Source: Methylophaga sp. (GTDB lineage Bacteria > Pseudomonadota > Gammaproteobacteria > Nitrosococcales > Methylophagaceae). Taken from it: DNA of 64,000 nt. The stretch lies in NCBI GenBank assembly GCA_002733505.1, contig NVVW01000007.1, positions 1-64,000 of the forward strand. The letters run 5' to 3'. The notes beneath the pieces are model-generated. The model made no database searches, was not told where the DNA came from, and saw only the letters and a list, made by a program, of their open reading frames with translations. The position numbers and the translations under genes are program-made. Below, one piece after another: positions 25,951 to 46,151 of the stretch. Each line of letters starts with the position of its first letter. Positions within the stretch are counted from its first letter, which is position 1.

Positions 25951-25963
25951 AGGAATTTTTCCT
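25951..25963. promoter_or_regulatory. Inverted repeat AGGAA-N3-TTCCT upstream of the TonB receptor
   Basis: AGGAATTTTTCCT is the exact reverse complement of the site at 45508-45520 upstream of the paralogous PepSY gene. It has the same arms as the site at 42976-42988. It lies about 85 bp before the receptor start and about 50 bp upstream of a TATAAT box. A half-site AGGAA occurs at 25885. The NarL-type regulator at 44804 is a candidate binder; this is inference. Confidence 0.6.
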
Positions 25964-26017: not shown

Positions 26018-26047
26018 ATTTTTAAGAGAGCGAGAGAGTTGCAGATT

Positions 26048-28384
26048 ATGAATTTACCCCACAAACGATCAGTATTATCACTGATAATATTAGGTGCTAT
26101 GACAGCGACAGCTGCCACAGCAGAAGACAGCATTAAATTAACAGATATCGAAGTTATCAGTACTACGCCGTTACATGGCGTGGGTTTACCCGCTGATAAG
26201 ATTGCCAGCAATGTGCAATCTGCAACAGATGAAGATATTGAACGTATCCAAGGTTTAGATATTTCTGATTTTATGAATAAAACGCTAGGTAGCGTAAGCC
26301 TAAATCAAGCTCAAAACAACCCTTTTCAGCCGGATCTAAAGTACCGTGGTTTTACGGCATCACCTCTTGTCGGGAACGCACAAGGGCTATCTGTCTATAT
26401 GGATGGTGTTAGAGTTAATGAGCCTTTTGGTGATGTGGTTAACTTTGAGTTAATACCCCAATCAGCTATTGCGAGCATGAACTTAATGCCAGGTTCTAAT
26501 CCGGTATTTGGTTTAAACACCTTAGGTGGTGCGTTATCGATTCAAACAAAAAGTGGTTTTACCCATCAAGGTCATAGTCTAGAGGCTTATGGCGGTTCAT
26601 TTGGTCGTTGGTCTACAACTTTAGAAAGTGGTGGTAATGACGGCAATCTTGGATATTATATAACAGGCACTCATACGGAAGAAGATGGCTGGCGAGATGA
26701 GTCACCTTCAGATATTGATCAATTATTTGCAAAATTAAGCTATCAAAACGAAACAAGCACATTAGATTTAACGCTGATGTCGATTGAAAGTGATCTAAAT
26801 GGGAATGGTGCTTCTCCTGTTGAATTGGTTGCTCTTGATCGAGAAGCGGTATTTACACATCCGGATAATACTCAAAATGATCTTGAAATGTTTGCCCTGA
26901 ATGGTTCACATTGGCTTAACGATGTAACACTGTTATCTGCTAATGCCTATTATCGCTCTAGCGATCGAACTACATTTAATGGTGATGGCTCAGAGTTATC
27001 GGTTATCGGTAATGATCTCGGTGAAGATGAAGATGGTGTTGACGGTGTCTTTGATGGAGATGACGAGATCCTCACAAATGATGCTGCTGCTCTTGGTTTT
27101 GCAGATGGCGATGATGTGGCTTTAAATAATACCAGTGACACAGAACAAGATAGTTATGGACTAGGTCTACAGTTTACTTTCCTTGATGAGATGTTTGGCA
27201 AAGAAAATCAATTAATTGTAGGTGCGAGCTATGATCGCTCTGATGTTGAACATACTTCTCAATCTGAAGTAGCTCAATTCACCGCGAGTCGAGGCACTAA
27301 TGGCACCGGTTTTATCATTGATGAAACAATTGTTGATGGTGATATTGAAACTGAAACATTTAGTTTATATTTCACTAATACAATTTCATTGACTGAACAG
27401 CTTGCGTTAACGGTTGCAGGTCGTTATAACCGAATTGAAATTGATATTTCTGGTACCAGTAAAGGCGGCGACCAAGATCTTAACGAGACAGGTGATAAAC
27501 ATGTATTTAGCCGTTTTAACCCATCTCTAGGTTTAACGTATGCCATTAATAATTCATTAAGTGCCTATGGTAGCTATAGTGAATCAAATCGCGTGCCAAG
27601 CCCTTCAGAGTTGACATGTGCACAGGATGATACGCGCGCAGAGCAAATTCAATGTGCATTACCTAACTCATTCTTAGCCGATCCACCGTTAGATGACGTT
27701 GTTGCCAGAACAGTTGAAGCTGGCCTACGAGGAAAAAATACGGGCGTTAATTGGAATGCTAATATTTATTACACAGAGCTAAAGGATGATTTATTCTTCT
27801 TCCCTGCTACTGAAGATGATCCAGCTGATCCACGATTAAGAACCGGTAATTTTGACAATATTGATAAAACGGCTCGAGCTGGATTAGAGTTAGGCCTGTT
27901 TGGTGAAGCTGAGAAATTTGATTGGTTCGCAAACTACTCTTATGTTCGCGCTACATTTGAAGATAGATTCCAATATGCGCGTGGAGTAGAAGGTGATTTA
28001 GAAACATTTACGGTTAACAAAGGCGACCGTCTTCCAGGAATCCCTGCACATAATGTGAAAATTGGTGCAGATTATCACTTTAATCAACAGTTTACCCTTG
28101 GTTTAACTGCTTCATATCACTCTAGCCAATATTATAGAGGCGATGAGGCTAATGAAGATAAGAAGATTAGCGCATATAAAGTCGTAAACCTGCATAGTCG
28201 CTATAAGATTAATAATAATGTACAGTTCTTCGCAAAAGTAGATAACTTATTTGATAGTGAGTATGATACCTTTGGTTTATACGGTGAACCAGATGAAGCA
28301 CCAGGGTTTGATTTTGAAAACCCACGCTTTGTTGGTGTTGGCGCGCCACGTGCAGGCTGGATTGGTATTAAAATATCATTGTAA
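26048..28384 (+). CDS. TonB-dependent outer-membrane receptor (candidate metal/lanthanide uptake)
   Basis: A 778-residue receptor with a signal peptide (about 1-25, ending TATA-AED), a TonB-box-like IEVISTTP, a plug domain (SDFMNKTLGSVSLNQ, then YMDGVRVNEPFGDVVNFELIP and GLNTLGGALSIQTKSG) and a 22-strand-type barrel ending GWIGIKISL. An extracellular-looking loop near residues 311-369 has 19 Asp/Glu in 57 residues and no Lys or Arg. It is followed by a small double-PepSY protein under a related operator. Methylotrophs use such receptors for lanthanide (LanA, LutH) or copper uptake; context favours a metal, but the substrate is not proven. The ATG at 26048 is preferred to an in-frame TTG at 26039. 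Confidence 0.9.
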   Translation: MNLPHKRSVLSLIILGAMTATAATAEDSIKLTDIEVISTTPLHGVGLPADKIASNVQSATDEDIERIQGLDISDFMNKTLGSVSLNQAQNNPFQPDLKYRGFTASPLVGNAQGLSVYMDGVRVNEPFGDVVNFELIPQSAIASMNLMPGSNPVFGLNTLGGALSIQTKSGFTHQGHSLEAYGGSFGRWSTTLESGGNDGNLGYYITGTHTEEDGWRDESPSDIDQLFAKLSYQNETSTLDLTLMSIESDLNGNGASPVELVALDREAVFTHPDNTQNDLEMFALNGSHWLNDVTLLSANAYYRSSDRTTFNGDGSELSVIGNDLGEDEDGVDGVFDGDDEILTNDAAALGFADGDDVALNNTSDTEQDSYGLGLQFTFLDEMFGKENQLIVGASYDRSDVEHTSQSEVAQFTASRGTNGTGFIIDETIVDGDIETETFSLYFTNTISLTEQLALTVAGRYNRIEIDISGTSKGGDQDLNETGDKHVFSRFNPSLGLTYAINNSLSAYGSYSESNRVPSPSELTCAQDDTRAEQIQCALPNSFLADPPLDDVVARTVEAGLRGKNTGVNWNANIYYTELKDDLFFFPATEDDPADPRLRTGNFDNIDKTARAGLELGLFGEAEKFDWFANYSYVRATFEDRFQYARGVEGDLETFTVNKGDRLPGIPAHNVKIGADYHFNQQFTLGLTASYHSSQYYRGDEANEDKKISAYKVVNLHSRYKINNNVQFFAKVDNLFDSEYDTFGLYGEPDEAPGFDFENPRFVGVGAPRAGWIGIKISL

Positions 28385-30207: not shown

Positions 30208-31338
30208 CTAAAATTGATACACTAAACCAAGATTAGCACCGAATGACTTCCAGTTTACGCCATTAAGCCGCTCCGTTTTGAGTGAGAAGCCATTAGCAAA
30301 GAAAATGGTATCAAAACCATCACGACTTGCTTGCCAGTCTTGATAATCTACCGATAATGTTAATGCCAAATCCTTATTTAAACGGTATTGACCATGAATA
30401 TTGCCAACTAAACCATAGCCTTCAGCTTCTTGAGTAAAACTTTCGGGGTGAGCGAAATCTGACCGTAAGTTCCAATTTGCAGTAGCTTCAAAATAAGCAT
30501 AATGATACTCAAAGTTAACCCCTAAAGTAAGCTTTTCATTGATAGCAAATTCACTTTCTAAACCTAACCATGGCCCATACCAAGTGGCATCATAATTAGA
30601 ATCTAGCCCTGAAAAGGATCCTGTAGACGGGATAGTTTGAAAACCATCACTTATATTGAAATATTGAGCATGGTAGGAGAAGCCGATTTTAGGTATCAAA
30701 TAAATCTGTTGTTGTTGATTACTCATTGCTAGCCATTGGTAGCCAGCATGAATGCTGGCATCGATAGTCATACCGTCATCAGTATTGTTATTTGATCGTG
30801 AAAATTCTAAGGTTCTATTATTGCCGAAGTAATCAGAATCTTGATTGTCACCATCAAAAATATGGCCATAGGTAAAATCAAAATTGAGTAACCAGTTTGG
30901 CTGAAAATAGAGCGTGGTGCCAATATTAAGGGTCGCTATTTCAATGTCGTCCCATTCTAATTCAGATAGAATATTAGGTGTGCCATTAAGACCTGCAATA
31001 GACCAATCTAACTCATCTTTACGATAGCCGGTAGCGCCATAAAACTCAGCGTGCTGATAGCCTAAAATAGGTTTTTTATTTTTAATAGCAATAGTGCTGT
31101 CTGCAGAAGATGTTTTGGGTGTTCTTACGCTGGGATCGCGTTCAAAGACATGTAATTGTAGATTATGTTTACGGCTTGGTGAAGCTGCATTCTCTGGGAT
31201 TATTTTGGATGCAGGTGTCTTTTCTAAGCTAGCAGCAGACTGCTCCTCAAAAACATGGATCTGTAATGTTGGTGCTGATGCCGAATGAGCAGTATTCATT
31301 GACAGCGCTACAATTATTGACAGATACGACCGTTTCAT
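30208..31338 (-). CDS. Outer-membrane beta-barrel protein with N-terminal LHVFE repeats
   Basis: The 376-residue protein has a signal peptide (1-19, HSAS), two imperfect repeats beginning LQIHVFEEQ and LQLHVFERD within the first 75 residues, and then a beta-barrel of alternating strands ending in Phe (LGLVYQF). The barrel contains GDNQDSDYFGNNRTLEFSRS, which I associate with omptin-like/Protochlamydia-type outer-membrane proteins, but I am not certain of the family. The start codon overlaps the secretin stop (TAATG), so it is translated with the secretion machine and may be a partner of it. Confidence 0.75.
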   Translation of the reverse strand: MKRSYLSIIVALSMNTAHSASAPTLQIHVFEEQSAASLEKTPASKIIPENAASPSRKHNLQLHVFERDPSVRTPKTSSADSTIAIKNKKPILGYQHAEFYGATGYRKDELDWSIAGLNGTPNILSELEWDDIEIATLNIGTTLYFQPNWLLNFDFTYGHIFDGDNQDSDYFGNNRTLEFSRSNNNTDDGMTIDASIHAGYQWLAMSNQQQQIYLIPKIGFSYHAQYFNISDGFQTIPSTGSFSGLDSNYDATWYGPWLGLESEFAINEKLTLGVNFEYHYAYFEATANWNLRSDFAHPESFTQEAEGYGLVGNIHGQYRLNKDLALTLSVDYQDWQASRDGFDTIFFANGFSLKTERLNGVNWKSFGANLGLVYQF

Positions 31339-33422
31339 TATTTCATCTCAGCCATAGTTTCATTAAAAGGTAAGGCTGAAATCAAATACAGATAAGTAGC
31401 ATCATTAGCCTGCCCGCGTCGCGCCAATGATGAACTCTCGACAGAAGAGGCTAGCCATTTGCCATTCACTTGTTGATAATCTACAGCTAATGCAGAATTT
31501 GATTTGTTCACTAATTCTACGGCGGTGACATGCAGACCACCTCGGTTCCAACTTGCCAGAGGCATTGCTTTTATTGCCTTATTATCAAATAAACCTGTTA
31601 CAGCTTGACGCTGTATTTTTGCCGGCAAATATTGCTGATCTAAAGTACGCTCAATTTCAGCAATTCGAATGGTATCAGCAGCATATTGACTCATCTCTAA
31701 ATACACATTTTGACGATCATTTCTTAATTGTTCACTAGGTGACACCGGCTCTTTATCAATAAACTTATTAGGGAAAGGCGCAAGATCAGGGAAGCCATCA
31801 TTAAGAGATTGATAAAAGGGGTTGTCTGCTTGGCGTAGCTTTTGGCTATCTTGTGGTTTGCTTAGAATGCGTGGCGTGATTAATAGCACCATTTCGGTAT
31901 CTTCTTCACTTTCAATGGTTGTCCTAAAAATACGCCCTAACACCGGGATTTCACTTAAAATAGGCACTTTTTTCTCAGTATTGGTTTTACTAGTACGAAT
32001 CAAGCCACCGATGGCAACAGTGAGGTTATTACGTGCAACAACGGTGCCTGTTAATCGAGCAGTATTGACAGTATCAACAGGCAGGTTAAGCACATTGCCA
32101 GCTCCATCACTTATGGGAAGTGTAGCACCGCCCGGATTGATGGTGGAGTTTTCTTGTTCTATTTCAAGCGTCACCGTATCATCGGCATTAATACGGGGAG
32201 TAATGCGTAAGGTAATGCCTATTTCTTCCAGTTCGGTCTGCGTTTCAATATAAGAGGGCGAGATAACAATACCATTGTCAATAACAGCAGGGTTAAAGGT
32301 GAATCCTCGTGTTAGCAAGCTTTCTTCACCAATAAACAGTTCAGCTTCACGGTGGTTAGATGCCAACACCATAGGGTTGGATAGCACTCTTACCCGTTTA
32401 TTTTGTTCTAAAAACTCAATATTGGCACGCAATCTGGAATTCAAAAACTCATAAATTAATGAGCCACTATTTAATAGTGCATTATTGCCTATTTCAATAG
32501 GTAGCTGTGATTGATTACCGCCACTGGGCTGTAGTTCAAAGTTAAAAATAGAATTAAAATCTTCACCTAGGATAATATTAAGGATCTGCATTTCCAGCAT
32601 GACTTGTGGAATAGCAATATCCAGTTTTTTAATGAGATCACCAATAGCCGCTATTACATTACGATCATCGGTTCTAACAAGAATCATACTATGTTCGTTA
32701 TTAACGGTGATATAAATGGGCTGGGCGTTGATACTGACTTGTTGCAATGTTTCTGTATCAACAATTTGGCCATTGAGGCTGGCAGAAATCTGAGCTAATT
32801 GATCAGCTGTTAAGTCTCCGCTAAATAGCTCGGTACCACTGGTCGCCATATTAGTGCCGACATTGCCACGATTTGCTCGGTTAGCACGATTGCTTCTTCC
32901 CGTTGCCCGTGAGTTTCTGACACCGCCACCACCACGATTGGCATTACCTGATGAGGCTTGGTTCATGCCAGACTGCCCAGGCTCAACCCCTAAAGATAAA
33001 ATAACGCGGTTACCATATAAATCTTGAATAGCTTGAGCGATGATCTGCACATTGGCATTTAATAACTTAAACACCTCAATGTTTTCACTTTCACGTACAA
33101 TTAAATCTCTACCATATTCTTCGCGGGTCATAATACGATAGGTATTAGTATCTTCATCATAGCGATACCACAAATCACTAATGCGGCTGATGGATTTTAT
33201 AGCATCCAGCACGGTGACATTTTTTAGATGAATAGTCACCCGATTTTTAGTGACGGCAGGGGTGGCGATAATATTGCTGTTAGATAGCTCAGATAAGGTG
33301 CGGATCACGTCTATGAGCTGCGTATCGGCAAATTCAAGTTCCTTTATTTTAGTGTCAGCAATAACATTAAAGCTCACTAATAAAAGCACTAAAAAGTAAG
33401 GGATATGGAGTAATTTTGTCAT
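31338..33422 (-). CDS. Secretin (GspD/PilQ/MshL-like)
   Basis: The 694-residue protein has a signal peptide (1-22), a secretin N-terminal short domain (ELEFADTQLIDVIRTLSELSN), N1-type domains split by a Gly/Asn/Arg-rich linker near residues 155-185 (a low-complexity stretch), and a C-terminal secretin domain with VAIGGLIRTSKTNTEKKVPILSEIPVLGRIF and VLLITPRIL. Secretins form the outer-membrane pore of type II secretion and type IV pili. The ATG at 33422 begins the signal peptide; a GTG at 33443 is an alternative. About 140 residues follow the secretin domain, an unusual tail. Confidence 0.93.
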   Translation of the reverse strand: MTKLLHIPYFLVLLLVSFNVIADTKIKELEFADTQLIDVIRTLSELSNSNIIATPAVTKNRVTIHLKNVTVLDAIKSISRISDLWYRYDEDTNTYRIMTREEYGRDLIVRESENIEVFKLLNANVQIIAQAIQDLYGNRVILSLGVEPGQSGMNQASSGNANRGGGGVRNSRATGRSNRANRANRGNVGTNMATSGTELFSGDLTADQLAQISASLNGQIVDTETLQQVSINAQPIYITVNNEHSMILVRTDDRNVIAAIGDLIKKLDIAIPQVMLEMQILNIILGEDFNSIFNFELQPSGGNQSQLPIEIGNNALLNSGSLIYEFLNSRLRANIEFLEQNKRVRVLSNPMVLASNHREAELFIGEESLLTRGFTFNPAVIDNGIVISPSYIETQTELEEIGITLRITPRINADDTVTLEIEQENSTINPGGATLPISDGAGNVLNLPVDTVNTARLTGTVVARNNLTVAIGGLIRTSKTNTEKKVPILSEIPVLGRIFRTTIESEEDTEMVLLITPRILSKPQDSQKLRQADNPFYQSLNDGFPDLAPFPNKFIDKEPVSPSEQLRNDRQNVYLEMSQYAADTIRIAEIERTLDQQYLPAKIQRQAVTGLFDNKAIKAMPLASWNRGGLHVTAVELVNKSNSALAVDYQQVNGKWLASSVESSSLARRGQANDATYLYLISALPFNETMAEMK

Positions 33423-33429
33423 GATTATT

Positions 33430-33873
33430 TTATCTTTGAACACGAATAGAGCCCAGTATGCCTGCTTCGACAGTAATACTTAGCCGATCAATTTTAGTGA
33501 TGCGAATAACGCTATTGGGTTGCGCTGGATTAATGCTGATATCATCGCCTTCACGCACCAGATAGGTTCTGTTCCCTGCTACTTCAAGCAAGGCGAGCGG
33601 ATCGTCATTACCTTGATCAATAAACCCGCGTAAACGCATTTGGGGTAGACCCGTAGTGCCGGCAGGTGTTCGCATAAACCCACCTGCTCCCCTGCCAGCA
33701 GTTTGGCTGTTCACCTCAAACATCAAAATGCTGGGAGTAAACGGATCACGTATTTCTTGCGGCATTGGTATGACGGCTGGGTTTAAATAAGGGCTTTGTA
33801 TTTGCCCGCCAGAAAATGATGTAATGGGCATCAGCCATAATAAGGCAAACCCTAAAATAATGTTAAGTTTCAT
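33430..33873 (-). CDS. PilP/GspC-like periplasmic protein (MshK position)
   Basis: A 147-residue exported protein (signal peptide 1-21). A linker containing RDPFTPSILMFE is followed by a small beta domain (LRGFIDQGNDDPLALLEVAGNRTYLVREGDDI) that matches the HR-domain fold of PilP and GspC. These proteins link the secretin to the inner-membrane platform. The stop lies eight bases before the secretin ATG. Confidence 0.8.
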   Translation of the reverse strand: MKLNIILGFALLWLMPITSFSGGQIQSPYLNPAVIPMPQEIRDPFTPSILMFEVNSQTAGRGAGGFMRTPAGTTGLPQMRLRGFIDQGNDDPLALLEVAGNRTYLVREGDDISINPAQPNSVIRITKIDRLSITVEAGILGSIRVQR

Positions 33874-33881
33874 TTAAACCC

Positions 33882-35099
33882 CTACCCGACCAAAGAAAAC
33901 AGTGCTTGGAAAAACGCATAATAAACAAAGCCGACCATGCCACCGATAAGCAGGATCATGGCAGGCTCAATCATCGCTGATAAGCGCTTGATTGCAGTGT
34001 CTAACAGTTGTTCGTAATAGCTGCCTAGCTCTTGCAAAATCCGATCAAGACTACCTGTTTTTTCACCGACGGTTATCATCTGCAACACCAATACAGGCAT
34101 TTGAGGGTGCTGCAAGCTTGTCGCCATATCTTTACCGTTTAACACCTGTCCTGACCCCGCAATCAGTTGATCAGAAAAAACCCGATTATTAATCAATTCA
34201 GCGGTTATTTTAAGCGCATCAAATACCGTTACGCCACTGCGTAATAATGTAGAAAACCCCCATGTCATTTGCGCCATTGAACCTTTGGTAATCATGTCAC
34301 CAAAGATAGGGATCCGCAGCGTTATGCTGTCAATCATATAGCGCCCACGCTTGGTTTGATATATCAATAATAGGGCAATAATAAAGGCAATAAACGCACC
34401 GATAATATAAAGCCCATTGGTTTGAATATAGGCAGAAAAATCAATCAGTGACTGTGTAGATGCGGGTAATACACGCCCTTGTGCGAGTAAAAAATCGGCA
34501 AATTTAGGAATGATCTTTAAACTCATAAACGCGCCTACGCCGACGGCGACTAAAAACACAATCGAGGGGTAAATCATTGCGTTAATCATATGGGATCGCA
34601 ATGCCGCTTTTTTTTCTAAGTGGATAGCTAGCCGCTCCATGATCTCATCTAAATTACCGGTGTTTTCACCGGCAACAATAAGATTTACTGCCATATTGGA
34701 AAATACATCTTGGTGTTTTTTCATGGCTAAAGACAGCGCCGAACCCGATTCAATATCCTTTAGTATCAGCTTAATAGTCAGCCTTAAACGTGCACTCGAC
34801 ATTTGAGTTTTTGCTAATTCCAATGCCTGCAAAATCGGTAAGCCAGCACGTAGCATAAATGCCATTTGGCGAAAAAAGAATACTAAGGCTGCAGGTGAGG
34901 CAGAGCGTTGCGACGCTAACCAATCAGCAAAATTCTCTTGGCCTAGAAAGCCAGCGCTACTTTTGCTTGGCTTGATTTCCAATACGCGTAAGCCGCGATC
35001 TCGCAAGTCCTGAGCGGCGACACTGATATTATCAGCTTGCTGTTTTCCTGTTAGTTCGCTACCAGAAGAGGTGAGAGCAGTATAAGCAAATAATGCCAT
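33882..35099 (-). CDS. Inner-membrane platform protein (GspF/PilC/MshG-like)
   Basis: A 405-residue protein with two T2SSF domains (about 68-191 and 271-393) and three membrane segments (near 168-190, 221-243 and 376-398). The motifs FFRQMAFMLRAGLPILQAL and GEKTGSLDRILQELGSYYE are characteristic. It organises the pseudopilus or pilus base. It begins one base after the ATPase gene ends, so the genes are co-transcribed. Confidence 0.94.
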   Translation of the reverse strand: MALFAYTALTSSGSELTGKQQADNISVAAQDLRDRGLRVLEIKPSKSSAGFLGQENFADWLASQRSASPAALVFFFRQMAFMLRAGLPILQALELAKTQMSSARLRLTIKLILKDIESGSALSLAMKKHQDVFSNMAVNLIVAGENTGNLDEIMERLAIHLEKKAALRSHMINAMIYPSIVFLVAVGVGAFMSLKIIPKFADFLLAQGRVLPASTQSLIDFSAYIQTNGLYIIGAFIAFIIALLLIYQTKRGRYMIDSITLRIPIFGDMITKGSMAQMTWGFSTLLRSGVTVFDALKITAELINNRVFSDQLIAGSGQVLNGKDMATSLQHPQMPVLVLQMITVGEKTGSLDRILQELGSYYEQLLDTAIKRLSAMIEPAMILLIGGMVGFVYYAFFQALFSLVG

Positions 35100-35100
35100 C

Positions 35101-36753
35101 TCAATGAGCTTCCATCATGGTACGTGTTTTATGCATTGCTACGTTTTGCAACTCAGCCAAGGTTGTCATACCATTTAACACTTTTTGACAACCATCTTCC
35201 CACATAAATTGTAGATTATCGCCTGCCGCTGCTGCCGCTTCAATTTTATCTTCACCTGCACCTTGTGCTACTAAACGGGATAAATTCTCATCAAACCATA
35301 AGGTTTCAAACACGCCCAGTCGCCCACGAAACCCTCGCCCCTGGCAAATCGCACAACCTACAGAGTCAAATATTTCAATGTTTTCATCTTTTACGCCTAA
35401 TAATTTGCATTCCTCTGCGGTTGCTGATCGTGCTTTGCGGCAGTGGGTACATAAACGACGCACTAGGCGCTGTGCAATCACTGCGGTTAAGGTTGATCCA
35501 ATAAGAAAAGGTTCACAGCCAATATCAATTAAGCGGGTGACAGCACTGGCGGCATTATTAGTATGTAAGGTTGAAAATACCATATGGCCAGTCATCGCTG
35601 CTTTTACTGATACATCAGCGGTTTCATGATCACGTATTTCACCGACCATGAGCACATCGGGATCATGGCGCAATAATGATCGTAAGGCTTCGGCAAAGCT
35701 GATTTTATGCCCTGTTTGAATTTGAGACACACCCTCCATCACATATTCAATCGGGTTTTCTACCGTCATAATATTTATTTCAGGATCATTAATTTCCTGC
35801 AATGCGGCAAACAAGGTGGTTGATTTACCGCTCCCCGTTGGTCCGGTTAACAAAATCAAACCATAGGGTTTTTTAATAGCCGTTCTGAAACGTTTTAGAT
35901 CGGTCGCTAACATGCCTAAATCAACCAAACTAAGCCCACCTGATTCTTGCCCAAGTAAACGCATAGTAATGCGCTCACCCAAACGAATAGGGGCAGTAGC
36001 CACACGAATATTAAATTCGCGATCAATCGGTGCGGCTAAATGATATGAAAAACCACCATCTTGTGGTTGGCGTTGTTCAGCAATATCTAAACTAGACAAC
36101 ACTTTAACCCGAGAAACCAAACCAGCAGCCACCGATGCATCGGCATCAATAGGGTGATCACGCAACCTACCATCAATGCGCAAACGCACCCGCAAACCTT
36201 CTTCTTCCGTTACAAAATGTATATCTGATGCTTGGTTGAGGTAGGCTTCGCGGATAATCGTGTCTAGCAAGGCAACTAAATCAACGTCATCGTCTACTTT
36301 TGCTTTAGAATCAGTCGCCATCGCGCTGGGTAGGGCATGCTCTATCATCAACCGCAAAACCTGCGGATCAGTCATCACTAGCGGTAATTTTGCGCCCAAT
36401 AAGCGCAATACAGAATCAATGGTAGCGCGATCATTAGGGTTGGACACCACCAATAAGGCATGGTCACCATCAACAATTGGTAATATTTGTTTGCGCTTAA
36501 TCAGACTGGCAGGCACTTTTTTGAGTAATTCGGCATGTGGCACACGGCTGCTTAAATCGATATACTCTAGCCCGTTATTTTCAGCAACTGCCCGATATAA
36601 AGCCGATGTTGGGAAGCGATATTGCGCTAATACTAAAGGCAATAACGCACTACGTTGCCGCCGAGCATCAATACGCAGACGATCTAAAACAGTCGATTCA
36701 ATTAAACCGGTGTTGATGCCTGCTTCGATTAGTTGAGGTTCAGATAACGCCAT
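35101..36753 (-). CDS. Assembly ATPase (GspE/PilB/MshE-like)
   Basis: A 550-residue ATPase with an N-terminal T2SSE_N/MshEN-like domain, Walker A GPTGSGKS at 304-311, the Asp box, LLRHDPDVLMVGEIRD and a C-terminal zinc motif (CTHC at 435-438 and CAIC at 467-470) as in GspE and PilB. It drives insertion of pilin-like subunits. It ends one base before the GspF-like gene. Confidence 0.94.
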   Translation of the reverse strand: MALSEPQLIEAGINTGLIESTVLDRLRIDARRQRSALLPLVLAQYRFPTSALYRAVAENNGLEYIDLSSRVPHAELLKKVPASLIKRKQILPIVDGDHALLVVSNPNDRATIDSVLRLLGAKLPLVMTDPQVLRLMIEHALPSAMATDSKAKVDDDVDLVALLDTIIREAYLNQASDIHFVTEEEGLRVRLRIDGRLRDHPIDADASVAAGLVSRVKVLSSLDIAEQRQPQDGGFSYHLAAPIDREFNIRVATAPIRLGERITMRLLGQESGGLSLVDLGMLATDLKRFRTAIKKPYGLILLTGPTGSGKSTTLFAALQEINDPEINIMTVENPIEYVMEGVSQIQTGHKISFAEALRSLLRHDPDVLMVGEIRDHETADVSVKAAMTGHMVFSTLHTNNAASAVTRLIDIGCEPFLIGSTLTAVIAQRLVRRLCTHCRKARSATAEECKLLGVKDENIEIFDSVGCAICQGRGFRGRLGVFETLWFDENLSRLVAQGAGEDKIEAAAAAGDNLQFMWEDGCQKVLNGMTTLAELQNVAMHKTRTMMEAH

Positions 36754-36761
36754 AATATTGC

Positions 36762-37460
36762 TTATAAGGCCAACACAAGTTCAGATCTAAGTAGCTGTGC
36801 GTAGCCGCGCATCGGCGCTGCCGGCATAAGCTCAATGTTCAATTGCACCACGGTCACTTGCCATTCTAGACCTTCAAGCCCATGAATAAAGGCGCGCAAT
36901 GATTGATAATCACCTTCTAATACCAGCCTTTGTATTGGGCGATGAAACATAGTCTTGGCAGACATGCGATCTATCCAGTTGTAGTTTTCGGGTAAGATCG
37001 CATCAACTTCAGTGGTAACTACTCTAGCCTTAGGCCGAGATTTAGACTTGAGGCTACTTTTGAACTTAGTAGCTCGCGCTCTATTGATGGCTTGATAGGC
37101 TTCATTACTACGGATCCGCATACGGGTAGTGCGAGCAAGTTCAGAAATACGCACCATTAATTGTTGTGAGCCAAAGGGTGCTAGCCGCTGTGTGGTATTG
37201 TCAGCCATCGTGTTAATTAATGCCAACACCTGTTCTTGTTCATCAAGTTGGTGTAATAATTCTTCAACATCCTGTTCTGGTTCATCGGGGATACGTGCTG
37301 TTTGTAGCTTTATTGCGGTTCTTTCGGCTTGTTTTTGCAAGGTCACAATGGTCTTGTTTTCAGGGATGAACCGCAATAAAGAATAAGCACCTAATATTAA
37401 TACCACAATCACTGTAGCCAATAAAATTTGCTCTGTTTGTTTTAATTTAGACAGCGTCAT
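36762..37460 (-). CDS. GspM/PilO-like inner-membrane protein (MshJ position)
   Basis: A 232-residue bitopic protein: a membrane segment at about 12-29, a coiled-coil stretch (IVTLQKQAERTAIKLQTARI and EEQLLHQL-like heptads), and a C-terminal ferredoxin-like domain around RPIQRLVLEGDYQSLRAFIHGLEGLEWQVTV. This is the PilO/GspM layout. It overlaps the preceding GspL-like gene by four bases. Confidence 0.85.
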   Translation of the reverse strand: MTLSKLKQTEQILLATVIVVLILGAYSLLRFIPENKTIVTLQKQAERTAIKLQTARIPDEPEQDVEELLHQLDEQEQVLALINTMADNTTQRLAPFGSQQLMVRISELARTTRMRIRSNEAYQAINRARATKFKSSLKSKSRPKARVVTTEVDAILPENYNWIDRMSAKTMFHRPIQRLVLEGDYQSLRAFIHGLEGLEWQVTVVQLNIELMPAAPMRGYAQLLRSELVLAL

Positions 37461-39226
37461 CGTTTTTCCTGCTGTTGTTTAATGGTTTCAGCAGACACCA
37501 GCTTGACTAAGCGCATTGACACGGCAAAACCATCAAGGCTCATCGGCCCTGCGCGTGAGAACACTCTGCTATCACGCACTTCTAAACCCCAAGGTGCCAC
37601 CGCCTCTTTCATGGTTTGAATAAATGATTGTGCCGAAGTTTCACTTAATGCCCATGCGGCAAGGTTAAAGTTTTCGACTTCTACACGGCTATCTTTTGGC
37701 ATCAGCGGCAAAGTCGGCATAACGGTGGCACGCTTGCCCAACTCATCAATTTTAGTGATAACAACATCATCAGAAACAGCGGTTTGCAATATGCCTAAAA
37801 TAGCCTGAACCAAAGCAACACGATTAGGCACGTCTTCGCCAAAAAAGGCCAGCCTAGCCTCGGTGCGAAGATGCGTTTGTTCTTGCTCTTTGATCAAGGC
37901 TTTGCGTTGTTCAACTTGTTTAATATCGCCTTTAATGCGGCTCATTGCGGTATCAAGCACTTTCCACTGTGCATCGACCTCGGTTTTATGCGATTGCACA
38001 AAATGATCACGCACTAGCAATGATAATTCAGCCCCAGAAATAATTAAAAATAAGGCTAAAAACAAGGCGGCAGCACGCACTTCTACCCGCTGCCATAGCG
38101 CAGGAAGTGGCCCGCCAATTCGAACATCAGTGGTGCGAGCTAAGCCCGCCAACGCTAAGGCATGCAAGCCGGCACCTAACATACCAGGGCTGACATTCTC
38201 ACTAATAGGGGCTTCATTTAACGAGGTTAATTTGACATCGAGAGTATCGGTTAATTCATTCGCTAACAGTGGATCATTGTCTCGCCAATTTGCCAGATAA
38301 ATTGAATTAGTAGTCGCTGGGTTTAGGGTGTGGTAGCTTTCTAAACACAATTGAATCGGCGTTTTAGCAGGGTTCACATATAAATATTGAGCAGCAATAT
38401 TGCCATCTAATAGCTGTAACACCATAGCTAAATCGGCATGTGATTCCATAATAACTGCGGGCGATATATCATCTGCCAACAATGTAGCACTGCAACCCGC
38501 TAGTGGATACATTGCCTGCAAGGCCACCCCTTGGGTGCTAAAGGTTTTTGTCCAGCGTTGTAATAATGATTTATTAGTGCAACTAACCAGCCAATTATAG
38601 GTACCGGGTAGATCTGCTACCTCGCCCTGAGGCACCCAGCCGCACTCAATTTCTTCATCATCCGATTTTAGCCACTCTTGCCCAGCAAGACAGGCCTTGA
38701 GTTGGCTTGATCGGATATAGCCTAGCTCTTCTGCTAATTCACCAAAGCGCCGCAAGGCAAATTTATCGGATAATTCTAAACCGCCAGCGGGGTTCGGCTT
38801 CGCCTGTTGCAAGTCCATCACTGCTTCTGCTTGCTCTTCGGTCATATAACCGCGGCCGACCAATAAATGCCCCACGGACCATTGGGTGGTGTGTTGCATT
38901 AATAAAGGCTCTGCCTCCCAGCGTACCAATTCTTGCATTTGGGCTAAGGGGCGTGGTTTTTTGGGGTTAACGGGTAATTCAATTAAGGTTGATAACACAG
39001 TGGGGGACAATAACACCGCATCACCGCCCTCCCAACCATCTTCTTTTAGGCGCTTAATTAACTCTGCCACCGCATCGGCCATATTGGCTTGCTGTGATTG
39101 TGTTTTATGTAACACCGCCAGCTCTTTACCAACACGGGTAAACACCGCACCGCGCATAATAAAACCGTCGGTTTCACAGACTAATAGTGTTTTGGCTTTG
39201 CCGAAATTAAGGGGTAAATTCAGCAT
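37457..39226 (-). CDS. GspL-like / PilM-PilN fusion protein with MshEN-like insert
   Basis: A 589-residue protein. An actin-like PilM/GspL cytoplasmic part (1-about 360) is followed by one membrane segment (about 382-405) and a periplasmic PilN-like domain with coiled coil. Within the cytoplasmic part, residues 120-141 and 160-183 contain two segments resembling the RLGxxLxxxGxxxxxxLxxxLxxQ pattern of c-di-GMP-binding MshEN domains; the second, beginning RFGELAEELGYIRSSQL, is close to consensus. I chose the ATG at 39226, which overlaps the upstream stop (TAATG); a TTG at 39241 is an alternative. Confidence 0.85.
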   Translation of the reverse strand: MLNLPLNFGKAKTLLVCETDGFIMRGAVFTRVGKELAVLHKTQSQQANMADAVAELIKRLKEDGWEGGDAVLLSPTVLSTLIELPVNPKKPRPLAQMQELVRWEAEPLLMQHTTQWSVGHLLVGRGYMTEEQAEAVMDLQQAKPNPAGGLELSDKFALRRFGELAEELGYIRSSQLKACLAGQEWLKSDDEEIECGWVPQGEVADLPGTYNWLVSCTNKSLLQRWTKTFSTQGVALQAMYPLAGCSATLLADDISPAVIMESHADLAMVLQLLDGNIAAQYLYVNPAKTPIQLCLESYHTLNPATTNSIYLANWRDNDPLLANELTDTLDVKLTSLNEAPISENVSPGMLGAGLHALALAGLARTTDVRIGGPLPALWQRVEVRAAALFLALFLIISGAELSLLVRDHFVQSHKTEVDAQWKVLDTAMSRIKGDIKQVEQRKALIKEQEQTHLRTEARLAFFGEDVPNRVALVQAILGILQTAVSDDVVITKIDELGKRATVMPTLPLMPKDSRVEVENFNLAAWALSETSAQSFIQTMKEAVAPWGLEVRDSRVFSRAGPMSLDGFAVSMRLVKLVSAETIKQQQEKR

Positions 39227-40377
39227 TATGGGATGATCCAATCAAGATTAAGGTTTAGGCTTTGCCGTGGTACAACGCTAAATATGCGAATATTACTTGT
39301 GTCTTGAGTATCATTACCTGCATTACAGTCGCCATCAAAAATCACATAATCATCAAAATTACCCGTCGCCGGCTCTTCGAAACAAACAATGGAATAAGCT
39401 CGCGTGCCTATAGGTATTTTTGGTGTTGAAATTAAGGTGAAGTTTTTAGTTTTTGGAATACCAGATATGGCAGAATTTGCATCTAGAACTAAATAATCAT
39501 TTACGTCATCATTACCATCAATAGCAGTGCTTAAATCACTTAAATATAGTCTAAGAACTAGGTTTTCATTAGCAATCGGTAAGTCACCCGCACTTTGATT
39601 TTTAAAGGTAACATTAACAGTTGCAGGAAGCTCAACCTCCCAATCAGCACTCTTCACAAGTTCTAGCTGTCTAGCCACACTTGCATCAGATGTTTCAATA
39701 TCACCTGATGGGTATTTATTTAGACCATTTAGGTCATAACTCTGTAAGCGGATGCTTGTTGCAGTACTGGCATCAGGTGTCAGAGTGCCAGAGCTATTAT
39801 AAAGCCGCCAAGACCAACCTGAATAACGCTCATCATCAAAGACAGTTGAAGCATCAAGATTTGTTCCACCAGCACCACTAGCGTCAGTCCCAGTGTTACC
39901 ATAACCATCCCGAAAGCGCAGATCGCCATTACGCTCAGGGAGCACTTGAATATAAGGGCCACGCCAACCCGATCCAAGCCCTGTTGAAGCATCAATATCC
40001 CAAGCTGTTATAATTTCACTTGGGATGCAGGGTGAGTCATGTTCTTTAGGATCTGTAGCTGGTGATCTTTCGTCACCTGATTCAAGTAATTCAGCCACAC
40101 AATTCGGCAAGCGCCCCATATCGGCCACAAAACCACTGATTTCTGGACCGCCATTAATGGTGCGGGTGGGGTCGCCGACAATAGCGGTGCGCATCATTGC
40201 CATCCGCCGTTTGGTTTCGTCATATTTAGCTTGATCTTCGACATTTTCGGTGAGCATTAAGGTGGCGGATGCCATCAGCCCAATTAAAAACAGCACTAAC
40301 ACCATTTCTAATAAGGTGAAACCCGATTGGAGATAACGTTTAGCTTGAGACCGAGCGATAGAACTCGCCGCCGTCAT
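39226..40377 (-). CDS. Prepilin-like protein, large
   Basis: With the ATG at 40377 (AAGGA nine bases upstream) the leader is 19 residues and the processing site is G-FTLLEMVLVLFLIG, a class III prepilin signal. The mature protein, about 364 residues, is much larger than a normal pseudopilin. An open frame continues upstream to 40497, but it runs through repeat-derived sequence and would give an unlikely 59-residue leader. The protein has Gly/Asp/Ser-rich segments (GTDASGAGGTNLDAS) also present in its neighbours. Confidence 0.85.
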   Translation of the reverse strand: MTAASSIARSQAKRYLQSGFTLLEMVLVLFLIGLMASATLMLTENVEDQAKYDETKRRMAMMRTAIVGDPTRTINGGPEISGFVADMGRLPNCVAELLESGDERSPATDPKEHDSPCIPSEIITAWDIDASTGLGSGWRGPYIQVLPERNGDLRFRDGYGNTGTDASGAGGTNLDASTVFDDERYSGWSWRLYNSSGTLTPDASTATSIRLQSYDLNGLNKYPSGDIETSDASVARQLELVKSADWEVELPATVNVTFKNQSAGDLPIANENLVLRLYLSDLSTAIDGNDDVNDYLVLDANSAISGIPKTKNFTLISTPKIPIGTRAYSIVCFEEPATGNFDDYVIFDGDCNAGNDTQDTSNIRIFSVVPRQSLNLNLDWIIP

Positions 40378-40393
40378 TGATCCTTCGGTTACT

Positions 40394-40425
40394 TCGTTTC
40401 GGCAGGCTTGTAGCCGGAATCTATT
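40394..40425. repeat. Repeat fragment in front of the prepilin gene
   Basis: CGGCAGGCTTGTAGCCGGAATCT here matches 46597-46619, part of a composite repeat. It lies between two prepilin genes and accounts for the spurious upstream extension of the second one's reading frame. Confidence 0.65.
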
Positions 40426-40512
40426 GCTTACACAATATTGCGTTGGTTTAACAGCCCAAGCTGTTAGCAGGGTAAGTTTTTGATTAGTTGACTTCATTAA
40501 TAGTGCACCTTA

Positions 40513-41310
40513 TCACCGCAATAAACACAAAACAGTATCTAGTGCTTCGCTGGTGTCGGGATCTAAGGGAGGTACACACACTTCAGAGCCTACACCATCA
40601 TATTTACCATTGTCGCCCATACTTACCAGACGATCATCGCCTGTTGCAGTAGATGTATCCATACCAAATAGCAGATAGGGTCTGCCATATTTTTCATAGG
40701 GTTGAGCTTGTGTGGTGGTGGTTCGCCAAGCTAGGTGCTCATCGCCATCTAGTATTTCGGTAACAAAGGGTTTGATATTTGGATCTGCAATCCCCCAAAC
40801 CTTAGTAATAGGTACCCCTGTAATAGGGCTACCAGAGGCATCGGGCGTTAAATCATCACCAATATCCAGATAGCCGCTTTTGCGTTGAATATAAGGGCCA
40901 TTCCAGCCGCGTTTGGTGTCGGCATTCCAGCCATTAGCCAGTGGATCTTGAAACAACATCCAAAAATTAGCAGGGTGTTGACACCAAACAATTTGCTCGG
41001 CATTCGTTGCACCTGCTTCGGCTGGGAAGTTAGCAGTGGGGATGGTAGTGCAGTTATACACACCTTGCTTAGGAAAATTACGGCTACCGCTATCACGCCT
41101 AAACTGTAGTAATGCTTTGCGTAGCTCTGCCATTTCAAAATTAGTGGCATCAGCGCGTGATTGGTCGGTCACACCATTTAAGCCCAGCACAGCGGCACCT
41201 GCAATAAGACCTAGTACGGTAATGACCACCAATAGTTCTAGCAGGGTGAAGCCTGATTGTGGTTTGAACCTTGGTTTTTTGTCACGTAGAAAAAACAATA
41301 AACACCTCAT
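40513..41310 (-). CDS. Prepilin-like protein
   Basis: A 265-residue protein with a basic 20-residue leader and the cleavage/methylation site G-FTLLELLVVITVLG, including Glu5 of the mature protein. The remainder is a large soluble domain with DDLTPDASGSPITG, similar to the other two prepilins. It lies 170 bp downstream of the first prepilin gene, after a terminator-like hairpin. Confidence 0.88.
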   Translation of the reverse strand: MRCLLFFLRDKKPRFKPQSGFTLLELLVVITVLGLIAGAAVLGLNGVTDQSRADATNFEMAELRKALLQFRRDSGSRNFPKQGVYNCTTIPTANFPAEAGATNAEQIVWCQHPANFWMLFQDPLANGWNADTKRGWNGPYIQRKSGYLDIGDDLTPDASGSPITGVPITKVWGIADPNIKPFVTEILDGDEHLAWRTTTTQAQPYEKYGRPYLLFGMDTSTATGDDRLVSMGDNGKYDGVGSEVCVPPLDPDTSEALDTVLCLLR

Positions 41311-42710: not shown

Positions 42711-42935
42711 CTATGCTTGCTGTGGCACATCCACAACAAAGCGATATTGTTTACCACAATGGATAATGACTTCTTTTTGCTTGCGTTTAAGAATTTTGAC
42801 TTCGACTTTGATTTCACCAAAGCCATCGTGTTTTAAAATCTCGTCAAATAGTGCCAGCATTTTTTGTTCTGCTGGTGCTGCGCTATGTTGTAAGCTGTCT
42901 GTTGTCATTGTTATTTCTGTTAGTGCTGATTTCAT
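42711..42935 (-). CDS. Small conserved-looking protein of unknown function
   Basis: This 74-residue (65 from the ATG at 42908) protein has codon use like real genes here and a plausible fold: a helix (AEQKMLALFDEILKH) followed by basic beta strands (IKVEVKILKRKQKEVIIHCGKQYRFVV). No good ribosome binding site is seen at either start. A perfect copy of the AGGAA-N3-TTCCT site and a TATAAC -10-like box lie immediately upstream on its strand, so it may belong to the same regulon as the PepSY genes. I do not recognise the family. Confidence 0.6.
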   Translation of the reverse strand: MKSALTEITMTTDSLQHSAAPAEQKMLALFDEILKHDGFGEIKVEVKILKRKQKEVIIHCGKQYRFVVDVPQQA

Positions 42936-42970
42936 CTGAAGTGCATCATAAGCGGGAGTTTGCCAAAGGT

Positions 42971-42988
42971 GTTATAGGAAAATTTCCT
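42971..42988 (-). promoter_or_regulatory. Inverted repeat AGGAA-N3-TTCCT with adjoining -10 box
   Basis: AGGAAAATTTCCT (42976-42988) has the same arms as the sites at 25951 and 45508. On the minus strand the site runs straight into TATAAC (42971-42976), so it overlaps the promoter core of the small gene, much as the site at 45508 sits next to TATAAT. The kinase gene at 43479 is nearly 500 bp away on the other strand. Confidence 0.6.
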
Positions 42989-43164
42989 TTTATATGTGAT
43001 GTGGCTCACGTTTTTTGGGGAAGTAGCCCATATCAGTTGTGTTTTAAATTCATGTAGAATATTAGGAGTAATTAGTATGTTATTGATTCTTATATTTAAC
43101 ATTAGCATTTCATTAAATGTTAACGGCTATTGGTTGCACAGTGGCTAACTATTGTCGCCACACC

Positions 43165-43478: not shown

Positions 43479-44804
43479 ATGAGTTTGCGTTCATTAATCA
43501 ATTTGCGAATTGTGCTATCAGTAATATTAATTTTGTTATTGGGTAGTGTGACTGCTGTGTGGCAGGCGCGACAGTCGGTAGCGAAAGAGGTGCAATCATC
43601 TATTACATTAGTATTACAGATGATTGAGTTTGGCTTTGAGCAAGCGCCAACGGAAAGTAAAAATAACAGTGCTTGGTTGCCACAGATTAATGCCTTGCAG
43701 CAGGCAAGGCATTTACAAATTTCAATTGCACAAGAGGGTCAGAAACCGGTTAAGTTTGTGACGCAGCGTGTTGTTGATGAAGATGAAAATAGACCGCCTA
43801 ACTGGTTTATTAAGGCAGTGATGACAGAATATTTGACCGAACGATATGATGTGGAAATGGGCGATGGTAGTATAAAGACAATCTTAATTACCGCTGATCC
43901 TATGGATGAAATTGCCGAGGCATGGGGCGAGTCTAAAGTGTTTTTTTGGTCGGTAGTGGCGATGTTGTGGGTGATGTTTTTGGCTATTAATCTGGTATTT
44001 AATTCAATGTTACGGGCTGTGCAAAGCATTCTTGTCGGATTACATCAAGTAGAGTTAGGAAGATATGACCTTACTATTGCTAAGTCAAATATTAGTGAAT
44101 TTGATATGATTGCAGTTGAAGTTAATGATATGTCTCAGGCGTTAAAAGTGGCACAACAAAATAATCAGGCTTTAGCGCGGCACACGATGAATATTCAAGA
44201 AACAGAGCGGCGGACGATGTCGCGGGAGCTGCATGATGAAATGGGGCAATCATTAACCGCTATTAAGGCAATGGCGGTGACATCTAAACAAGAAAATGTC
44301 GATGTGCCAACGGTAGCAGATTCTATTATTGGAATTTGTGACCATTTGGCAAAAGTGGTGCGTTCGATGATGCGCACACTTCATCCCTTAAGTTTGACTG
44401 AGCTAGGGCTTGGAGCAACTTTGACCGATTTAACCAATGAATGGCAGCGACGCCACCCAGCACTGGATATAAACTTTCATTATGATGAGGCTGTAGAAGC
44501 GCTTGATTATGAGGTTGCTATTCATGTTTATCGTGTGGTGCAAGAGTGTTTAACCAATGTAGTGCGCCATGCACAGGCGACGCAAGTAACCGTGATGATT
44601 GACTGGGTGGAGAAGGGTGATGAGCCACGCGTAGAATTAACAGTAAGTGATAATGGCGTGGGCGGCCAAGTGGGCGCCGAAGGTTTTGGTATATTAGGTA
44701 TGCGAGAGCGGGTCGAAAACTTGGGTGGCCAATTTAAATCGGAATCTAGCAATGGTAATGGTATGACGGTAACAGCGTGGATGCCTTTTATTAGGAAAAA
44801 ATAA
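43479..44804 (+). CDS. MoxY/MxaY-like sensor histidine kinase
   Basis: A 441-residue NarX-type kinase. It has a membrane segment at 9-28, a periplasmic domain of about 125 residues resembling the LapD/MoxY N-terminal domain, a second membrane segment (155-174), a HAMP-like linker, the HisKA_3 site SRELHDEMGQ with His252, the N-box VVQECLTNVVRHA (353-365), DNGVGG (391-396) and GFGILGMRERV (402-412). MoxY of Paracoccus and MxaY of Methylotuvimicrobium are kinases of this type that control methanol dehydrogenase genes. The ligand is unknown; the acidic VVDEDENRPP stretch (98-107) is notable. The stop overlaps the regulator start (TAATG). Confidence 0.88.
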   Translation: MSLRSLINLRIVLSVILILLLGSVTAVWQARQSVAKEVQSSITLVLQMIEFGFEQAPTESKNNSAWLPQINALQQARHLQISIAQEGQKPVKFVTQRVVDEDENRPPNWFIKAVMTEYLTERYDVEMGDGSIKTILITADPMDEIAEAWGESKVFFWSVVAMLWVMFLAINLVFNSMLRAVQSILVGLHQVELGRYDLTIAKSNISEFDMIAVEVNDMSQALKVAQQNNQALARHTMNIQETERRTMSRELHDEMGQSLTAIKAMAVTSKQENVDVPTVADSIIGICDHLAKVVRSMMRTLHPLSLTELGLGATLTDLTNEWQRRHPALDINFHYDEAVEALDYEVAIHVYRVVQECLTNVVRHAQATQVTVMIDWVEKGDEPRVELTVSDNGVGGQVGAEGFGILGMRERVENLGGQFKSESSNGNGMTVTAWMPFIRKK

Positions 44805-45457
44805 TGAATGATAAATTGAAAGTATTGCTTGTTGATGATCACACCGTGGTGCGTGCGGGCTTTCGCATGCTGTTATCGTCACAAGATTTTATTGAACAGA
44901 TCATGGATGTTGATCGCGGTGAGCTGGCGTGTCAACACTATAATGAATTTCAGCCCGATGTGGTGGTGATGGATTTATCAATGCCGGGTATTGGCGGTTT
45001 GGAATCAATACGCCGTTTAATTCAATTGGATGCTAATGCAGTAGTGTTGGTGTATAGCATTCATGATGAAATTATTTATGTCGATCGGGCATTGCAAGCG
45101 GGCGCAAAAGGCTATGTCAGTAAAAATAGCGCGGCAGAGATATTGGCAGAGGCGGTGTCGGTGGTGGCATCAGGCAAGCAATATATCGAAGCAGGCTTAT
45201 TACCAGAACAATATAATACAATTCATAACGATGAAGATAAATTGAGAGAGGTGATTGATGTGCTTTCACCGCGTGAATTTGATGTGTTTTGTTTATTGGC
45301 AAAAGGCATGACCGTGCGCGAAGCGGCGGCTGATTTGTGCTTAGGATATAAAACGGTAGCGAATTACAGCACCCAGATCAAAAACAAGCTTAGTGCCAGT
45401 ACAGCAGCAGATTTGGCACGAATTGCGATAACCTTGGGCATTATAAAAAGCCACTAG
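44804..45457 (+). CDS. NarL/LuxR-type response regulator (MxaB/MoxX-like)
   Basis: A 217-residue regulator with an N-terminal receiver (acidic pair Asp11-Asp12, phospho-acceptor Asp57 in VVVMDLSMPGIGG, Lys near 105) and a C-terminal LuxR helix-turn-helix (LSPREFDVFCLLAKGMTVREAA and GYKTVANYSTQIKNKL). It is translationally coupled to the kinase, so the two form a cognate pair. NarL-type regulators bind short inverted repeats; the three candidate sites just downstream make autogenous-neighbourhood control of the PepSY gene likely. Identity with MxaB is by analogy only. Confidence 0.9.
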   Translation: MNDKLKVLLVDDHTVVRAGFRMLLSSQDFIEQIMDVDRGELACQHYNEFQPDVVVMDLSMPGIGGLESIRRLIQLDANAVVLVYSIHDEIIYVDRALQAGAKGYVSKNSAAEILAEAVSVVASGKQYIEAGLLPEQYNTIHNDEDKLREVIDVLSPREFDVFCLLAKGMTVREAAADLCLGYKTVANYSTQIKNKLSASTAADLARIAITLGIIKSH

Positions 45458-45466
45458 AAAGGCGGC

Positions 45467-45527
45467 AGGTGAAAATCCTATTTCTTTTCGGGAATAAGTT
45501 CCCATGCAGGAAAAATTCCTATATAAT
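45467..45527 (+). promoter_or_regulatory. Promoter with three candidate operator sites upstream of the second PepSY gene
   Basis: Three related inverted repeats lie in series: degenerate AGGTGAAAATCCT (45467-45479), perfect GGGAATAAGTTCCC (45490-45503) and perfect AGGAAAAATTCCT (45508-45520). One base further on is TATAAT at 45522-45527, a consensus -10 box. The middle and last sites fall in the -35 and spacer region, so a bound regulator would contact RNA polymerase directly, as repressor or activator. Confidence 0.65.
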
Positions 45528-45602
45528 AAAAGCACGTGATTGTTGTTCTTGTGGGTAGAAAGTAATCATTCTTTTTATGATTATATTTATAAGGAAGTAA
45601 CA

Positions 45603-46151
45603 ATGAAAACACTACTATTAAAAATTGTGCCAGCTGCGCTAGCTGTTGCACTTTCTTCAAATATCTACGCAAGCGATCAAGCTGATTTAGATGATATTAG
45701 AGGTTGGGGCTTAGTAAGCGTCGAAACTTGTTTAGATGCGGCATTAGATACTGTTCCAGGTAATGCGCGCAAACTTGAATTGAAAATGGAAGGCGATGAT
45801 CCTACCTATGAATTTGAGATTGATGCAAGAGATGGTAATACCTACAATGTTGAGTGTAATGCTGAAGAAGGCTTTATTACTGAAATTGAACGTAGCGTTG
45901 CTGCCGATGATCCGGTATTCGTAAAATATGCAAAAATCACTGAAGCGCAAGCACGCGCAACTGCTTTAGATTTCAACCCAGGTAAAGTAGTTTCTAATGA
46001 ATATGAAATTGGTATGGATGGTTCAGTGACCTATGAATATGATATTCAAACCACATTGGGTTATGAAGTTAAAGTTGATGTTAATGCGGTAACCGGTGAA
46101 ATCGAAGAAGCCAATATTGAATTATATGAAATTGGTATGGAACAAGAATAA
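45603..46151 (+). CDS. Secreted acidic protein with two PepSY-like repeats, paralogue
   Basis: A 182-residue protein with a signal peptide (1-23, IYAS) and two PepSY-like units (about 38-97 and 112-178). It aligns without large gaps to the protein at 28507 (for example YEFEIDARDGNTYNVECNA against [19 protein letters not shown]). Cys43 and Cys85 have the same 42-residue spacing as in the paralogue and could form a disulfide. The ATG at 45603 is preceded by AAGGA; an upstream TTG frame at 45540 is spurious. It lies directly after the kinase/regulator pair, so it may be the periplasmic metal buffer or signal input for it. Function is inferred. Confidence 0.85.
   Translation: MKTLLLKIVPAALAVALSSNIYASDQADLDDIRGWGLVSVETCLDAALDTVPGNARKLELKMEGDDPTYEFEIDARDGNTYNVECNAEEGFITEIERSVAADDPVFVKYAKITEAQARATALDFNPGKVVSNEYEIGMDGSVTYEYDIQTTLGYEVKVDVNAVTGEIEEANIELYEIGMEQE

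Follow-up and report, generated by a model that had tools for sequence, protein, structure and literature searches.

The window analysed in this study, a stretch of 64,000 nucleotides from the Methylophaga sp. contig NVVW01000007.1, carries a small gene on the minus strand, located between a prepilin gene cluster and a divergently oriented gene for a MoxY-like histidine kinase, as described in the original prediction. In this genome, the small gene stands first in a type II secretion-like operon in which GspE, GspF, a secretin and prepilin-motif proteins are encoded in a row. The prepilin-motif proteins comprise the first pseudopilin and two more; the operon also encodes a PilO-like protein (weak match) and a Pom-type outer membrane protein, and its ATPase GspE carries the domains T2SSE and MshEN. 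Two further proteins of the operon, comprising 594 (37457-39241) and 147 amino acids (33430-33873), were without any Pfam match. Elsewhere in the window, a further PepSY-like gene (28507-29016) directly follows the gene for a TonB-dependent receptor. All main features are listed in Table 1.

Table 1. Genes and putative control elements at the locus (positions refer to the window).
Feature	Position	Strand	Basis or remark
Repeat copy, followed by TATTAT at 24 nt	25951..25963	+	ahead of TonB-dependent receptor gene
TonB-dependent receptor, proposed member of the common regulon	26039..28384	+	repeat copy upstream
Remainder of type II secretion-like operon	30208..41310	-	prepilin-motif proteins, GspE, GspF, secretin
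First pseudopilin, 370 aa	41482..42594	-	N_methyl/T4 prepilin motif; small gene directly 5' in relatives
Small gene, 65 aa (MTTDSLQHSAAPAEQKMLALFDEILKHDGFGEIKVEVKILKRKQKEVIIHCGKQYRFVVDVPQQA)	42711..42908	-	at least 94 relatives, alignment A1, dN/dS, in-frame stop in L003
TATGAT, probable true -10, 25 nt downstream of repeat	42945..42950	-	conserved TAnnAT, offset enrichment, composite motif
TATAAC adjoining repeat, -10 of the original prediction	42971..42976	-	drifts in relatives
Shared perfect inverted repeat AGGAAATTTTCCT, putative site of MoxX-type LuxR-family response regulator	42976..42988	-	centred at about -44
CRP/FNR-like palindrome TGTGATGTGGCTCACG	42995..43010	.	sequence; similar palindromes in several relatives
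MoxY-like histidine kinase (LapD_MoxY_N, HisKA_3, HATPase)	43479..44804	+	domain matches; divergent from small gene
MoxX-type response regulator (receiver and GerE/LuxR HTH), proposed activator	44804..45457	+	domain matches, orthologue counts
Second repeat copy AGGAAAAATTCCT, abutting TATATAAT	45508..45520	+	ahead of PepSY gene; spacing unlike activator-type sites
Two-domain PepSY protein	45540..46151	+	LanPepSY-like by domain content

The longer minus-strand frame at this position (42711-42935) comprises 74 amino acids, and an internal ATG gives a product of 65 amino acids (42711-42908). The shorter form is preferred and the longer one appears unlikely, since in the relative L003 a TAA codon lies in frame upstream and the match begins at the internal methionine. 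Moreover, the predicted transcription start (approximately position 42938) leaves the 74-amino-acid start nearly leaderless. The small gene is real, coding and under strong purifying selection, as dN/dS values of about 0.02-0.26 were obtained in comparison with three relatives, with nucleotide changes being mostly silent. An AlphaFold2 model (mean pLDDT 78) features a helix (residues 11-26) and three strands, and the protein is probably cytosolic. These results agree with the earlier description of a coding frame of 65-74 residues composed of a helix and basic strands.

Scanning the genomes of bacteria and archaea identified at least 94 relatives of the small protein, so that a lack of homologues with conserved reading frame, one of the points on which the original prediction could have failed, can be dismissed. 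The relatives originate from Gamma- and Betaproteobacteria, Desulfobulbales, Clostridia, Phycisphaerae and Omnitrophota; the 80 of them kept for locus counts include members of Methylophaga, Methylomonas, Methylophilaceae, Burkholderiales and Rhodocyclales. The family is patchily distributed, as only 3 of 397 other sampled Pseudomonadota genomes carry the gene, and it is strikingly conserved, featuring 12 invariant positions across 56 family sequences (alignment A1). Searches for the small protein in phages yielded no match and those in plasmids a single one. The family is also unannotated: no sequence match above cut-off was obtained in Pfam, NCBIfam or PDB, and within these libraries the protein is undescribed, as proposed before. 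Weak matches to Imm64, EasF/EgtD and small_w_EgtBD (E 0.005-0.06, below cut-off) were rejected as chance, and TIGR04374 was not found in 150 sampled Pseudomonadota genomes. A Foldseek search with the structural model gave nothing below an E-value of 0.06, and dsRBD- and SRP14-like matches were set aside as weak. The histidine/cysteine pair within the motif IIHCGKQY is kept in many family members, as would be expected of a chaperone that binds or carries metal or heme without regulating. Such a function is considered improbable, because the histidine is replaced by aspartate in Methylophilaceae and Burkholderiales and the cysteine by tyrosine in several members, leaving the family without a fixed ligand set.

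Genomic neighborhoods of the relatives were evaluated. Among the 75 loci with a scorable downstream side, 48 encode a pseudopilin within four genes downstream, the small gene lying immediately before the pseudopilin operon, whereas 12 feature a TonB receptor within three genes downstream, usually after a PEP-CTERM gene; the two sets do not overlap. In Methylomonas, the small gene has the secretin genes on one side and the gene for the first pseudopilin on the other. On an Aquabacterium olei plasmid, the one case in which a whole heme-uptake operon was checked, it is followed by genes for a PEP-CTERM protein, a TonB receptor, ChuX/HutX, an ABC substrate-binding protein, a permease and an ATPase. 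In anaerobes, FeoB, flavodoxin, DUF3793, a DtxR-type repressor or ZIP are encoded nearby. A MoxY gene is adjacent in only 11 of the 80 loci, all of Methylophaga, Colwellia-MAG or Neptuniibacter type. Based on these neighbors, the family tracks metal acquisition and secretion rather than MoxY, and the originally assumed association with MoxY-like kinases has to be abandoned in favor of pseudopilin or TonB operons as the usual partners.

Core components of type II secretion and type IV pilus systems (GspE, GspF, secretin, pseudopilins) follow the small gene in the window; a small, conserved protein of the cytosol encoded first in the operon is not known to us as a component of these systems. The frequent position ahead of pseudopilins, and the one between secretin and pseudopilin genes in Methylomonas, would suit a cytoplasmic accessory of the secretion machine, e.g., one that serves the GspE ATPase or the platform in the inner membrane as an adaptor, instead of a regulator. 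This explanation is rather unlikely given that in at least 12 loci the gene precedes a TonB receptor without a pseudopilin nearby, that several anaerobes possess FeoB, flavodoxin or ZIP beside it and no pseudopilin, and that the strongly conserved core of the protein differs little between these contexts.

A regulatory function is suggested by resemblance to HemP/HmuP (PF10636), small transcriptional regulators of heme-receptor genes that act as activators in most species and as a repressor in S. maltophilia (PMC9241770). The family shares with these proteins the size, the hairpin pattern E-h-x-I-x-H-x-G-x-x-Y-R and, in Aquabacterium olei, the placement as first gene of a TonB-receptor/heme-uptake operon. 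The latter position, at the head of a TonB-receptor operon, applies to Aquabacterium and Methylophilaceae, whereas in the present genome the secretion operon follows instead. Alignment of the HemP profile with the family by hhalign resulted in a probability of 61% and a score of 24.7, a weak resemblance above the controls (maximum 17.8 for 60 column shuffles and 17.9 for 110 windows of real proteins from other families). In contrast to HemP, the family possesses an N-terminal helix and an HDGFGEI block, is encoded at the start of secretion operons in most relatives, and lacks the C-terminal KLILTK, which is absent from the consensus and from all alignment rows shown; the corresponding motif KLILxK was described for HemP (PMC9241770). 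The Pfam model hemP gave no match at the small gene of this genome (G000) and none among 56 family members at E ≤ 0.1, and the solved HemP structures 2jra, 4ynx and 2loj were not among the 50 Foldseek matches listed. Since the Pfam match and the KLILTK tail are missing and the profile resemblance is weak, the leading idea is that the protein works like HemP, not that it is HemP. DUF2292/YezD (PF10055) proteins are also small and show a helix followed by a (F/Y)G-x-h-x-h-x-h strand; kinship with them was rejected, because their profile score of 18.3 only marginally exceeds the same controls and the family has no Pfam match to PF10055.

The exact repeat AGGAANNNTTCCT occurs in five copies in the 2.37-Mb genome (two for the control pattern), three of them within the window, and these precede the small gene, the PepSY gene (45508), the TonB receptor gene (25951), a cytochrome b561 gene (contig C17) and a gene matching TIGR03863 (contig C42). 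A loose search allowing three mismatches remained at background level (29 found, 28.8 expected). The repeat upstream of the small gene is kept across Methylophaga-type genomes and Colwellia-labelled MAGs, and its TATA-extended form AGGAANNNTTCCTATA yielded about 59 matches in 56 family genomes compared to eight for the control. Thus, membership of the small gene in a candidate regulon, as originally proposed, is upheld by a conserved control site common to the PepSY gene and others.

The original prediction further stated that the repeat runs into TATAAC in the same manner as at the PepSY gene, which is correct as far as the letters are concerned (42976-42971, and 45508-45520 into TATATAAT), and placed the working promoter within this overlap, which is not supported by conservation. 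In the upstream-region alignment (A2, disregarding row L093, which is in the wrong orientation), an invariant AAAAGGAAWTTTTCCTAT block is followed by a TAnnAT hexamer 24-25 nt further downstream, whereas the hexamer adjoining the repeat reads TATCAC, TATAGC or TATATG in relatives. Among 106 site/strand cases, 39 showed a TA...T hexamer at offsets 24 or 25, compared to eight at most for any other offset, with offset 1 scoring high partly because many sites were fetched with a TATA-containing pattern. The composite motif GGAANNNTTCC-N25/26-TATNAT was found four times in this genome and not at all for the control; its sites belong to the small gene, the TonB receptor, the PedA1/PQQ-ABC-like gene and cytochrome b561. 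Because the adjoining TATAAC drifts while TAnnAT 24-25 nt downstream stays, we infer that the repeat is an upstream activator-type site, centred near -44 with a transcription start near 42938. For LuxR-type proteins, a centre near -44 is a classic activator position. A sigma-70 scan found neither promoter nor terminator on the strand of the small gene; absence of the former is expected of an activator-dependent promoter without a -35 element. Reading the repeat as a repressor operator overlapping the -10, with TATAAC and TATATAAT as the real -10 elements, would accommodate their literal adjacency at the small gene and the PepSY gene and the TATA retained after the repeat in several relatives. 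This possibility is given little weight in view of the hexamer conservation described above and because, of the remaining four sites in the genome, three have TATTAT exactly 24 nt from the repeat. The PepSY-gene site differs in spacing, with TATAAT right after the repeat, and may work otherwise.

Further palindromes were noticed in the vicinity of these sites. The palindrome TGTGATGTGGCTCACG lies two helical turns (20.5 bp) upstream of the repeat centre, and similar ones are present in several Methylophaga relatives and absent in others. At the PepSY gene, a second palindrome, GGGAATAAGTTCCC, is located directly upstream of the repeat (45487-45520). Between the small gene and the kinase gene (43180-43420), REP/MITE-like inverted repeats (CATTGCGAACGCAGTGCGGCAATCC; CCCGGCTAAAAGCATACCGGGATGACG) were observed.

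Regarding the protein that recognizes the activator-type site, the adjacent LuxR-type response regulator MoxX, operating under the MoxY-like kinase, is the most likely candidate. Orthologues of MoxX with 65% identity or more are encoded in 29 of 30 family genomes with AGGAANNNTTCCTATA and in 7 of 26 without it, and the TATA-extended repeat occurs in none of 11 genomes lacking a MoxX-type match at E ≤ 1e-50, both counts being confounded by kinship. The location of the site in relatives appears to be stronger evidence than these co-occurrence counts: the composite site separates a TonB receptor gene (product 72% identical to that of the window) from a gene for a MoxX-family regulator in L214 and L218, and it separates a TonB receptor gene from a histidine kinase gene with a sub-threshold LapD_MoxY_N match in L212. 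Counting the window, three distinct arrangements therefore place a palindrome at activator spacing beside genes of MoxX or MoxY type, which argues against recognition by another factor, such as an unrelated repressor or the paralogue of MoxX encoded on contig C18. Composite cytochrome b561 sites speak for such a factor, as they occur in genomes without a close MoxX orthologue that encode the paralogue (45-49% identity), among them G008, G012 and G015 with only a paralogue of 45-47% identity; another factor accordingly keeps a real, though minor, share of the probability.

Genes sharing the repeat encode a TonB receptor, a PQQ/PedA1-type ABC binding protein with a beta-propeller partner, a PepSY protein and cytochrome b561, a combination suggesting that the regulon most likely serves metal acquisition. 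The site on contig C42 precedes a gene with a partial match to TIGR03863, followed by a TIGR03866 match, both below cut-offs; these models (PQQ_ABC_bind and PQQ_ABC_repeats) represent what we take to be the ABC set associated with PQQ-dependent alcohol dehydrogenases, with PedA1 as a member. With the two-domain PepSY protein and the TonB receptor, they represent the putative lanthanide-uptake-type genes of the regulon. Lanthanide is the best guess for the metal, since the lanthanide switch of M. buryatense is under the control of a MoxY-type kinase, MxaY (PMC5018670), since LanPepSY, which binds lanthanides, is among the two-PepSY proteins (PMC12482762), and since PedA1A2BC is required for growth of P. 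putida at low La3+ (PMC6839425). As in M. buryatense, a LapD_MoxY_N kinase and a LuxR-type response regulator are encoded beside metal-uptake-like genes; in contrast to MxaY/MoxYX of that species, the linked targets here are the TonB receptor, the PQQ-ABC-like gene, the PepSY gene and the secretion operon and not mxaF/xoxF (PMC5018670, in which a text search did not find an MxaB/MoxX site). The repeat-sharing PepSY, TonB receptor and PQQ-ABC genes resemble the kinds represented by LanPepSY, LanA/LutH and PedA1A2BC (PMC12482762, PMC6839425), whereas neither a secretion operon nor a small protein was found within this uptake set in the papers searched. Text searches of papers on La-dependent expression in methanotrophs likewise gave no secretion or pilin genes. 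A regulon for iron or heme, or for metals generally, is a less probable but serious alternative, given the FeoB, hmu-type operon and DtxR contexts of the family in other taxa and the resemblance of a motif-bearing receptor in a relative to FecA. Signalling of MoxY type and the presence of the motif at the PedA1/PQQ-ABC-type gene and, as the repeat, at the two-PepSY gene point to lanthanides instead, and no Fur-like box was recognised, though without a systematic search.

Based on these results, a HemP-like small regulator or accessory protein heading a secretion operon is proposed, within a MoxYX-controlled regulon that probably serves lanthanide acquisition; we give this overall reading about an even chance, with the binder, the metal, the single transcription unit and the regulatory role all being deduced from sequence. 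MoxX would switch on the secretion-like operon via the repeat centred near -44, and the small protein, made from the operon head, would tune expression of its own operon in the manner of HemP/HmuP. New in this study is a small-protein family that is conserved and lacks annotation, for which a role like that of HemP is plausible; its gene heads a secretion operon within a control circuit outlined here. A broader and more doubtful extension is that in several phyla the unnamed family represents a common factor that regulates or couples metal acquisition, and that in marine methylotrophs it ties a dedicated type II secretion-like machine to the MoxYX lanthanide regulon. If true, marine methylotrophs would gain rare earths by means of a secreted protein. 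With regard to the uptake of poorly soluble lanthanides by bacteria, the TonB receptor, the PQQ-ABC-type gene, the PepSY gene and the secretion operon, all linked to a two-component system by the control site (repeat, 24-25 nt, -10), represent a short list of candidate uptake genes that can be tested directly.

Further copies of the repeat were observed in relatives. It precedes genes for FecA-like TonB receptors and porin-like proteins (L135, L139, L144, L154, L163, L166 and L155, L165, L167), and therefore the regulon varies between species. In L124, it precedes a gene for a PEP-CTERM/exosortase-associated acyltransferase (TIGR03694).
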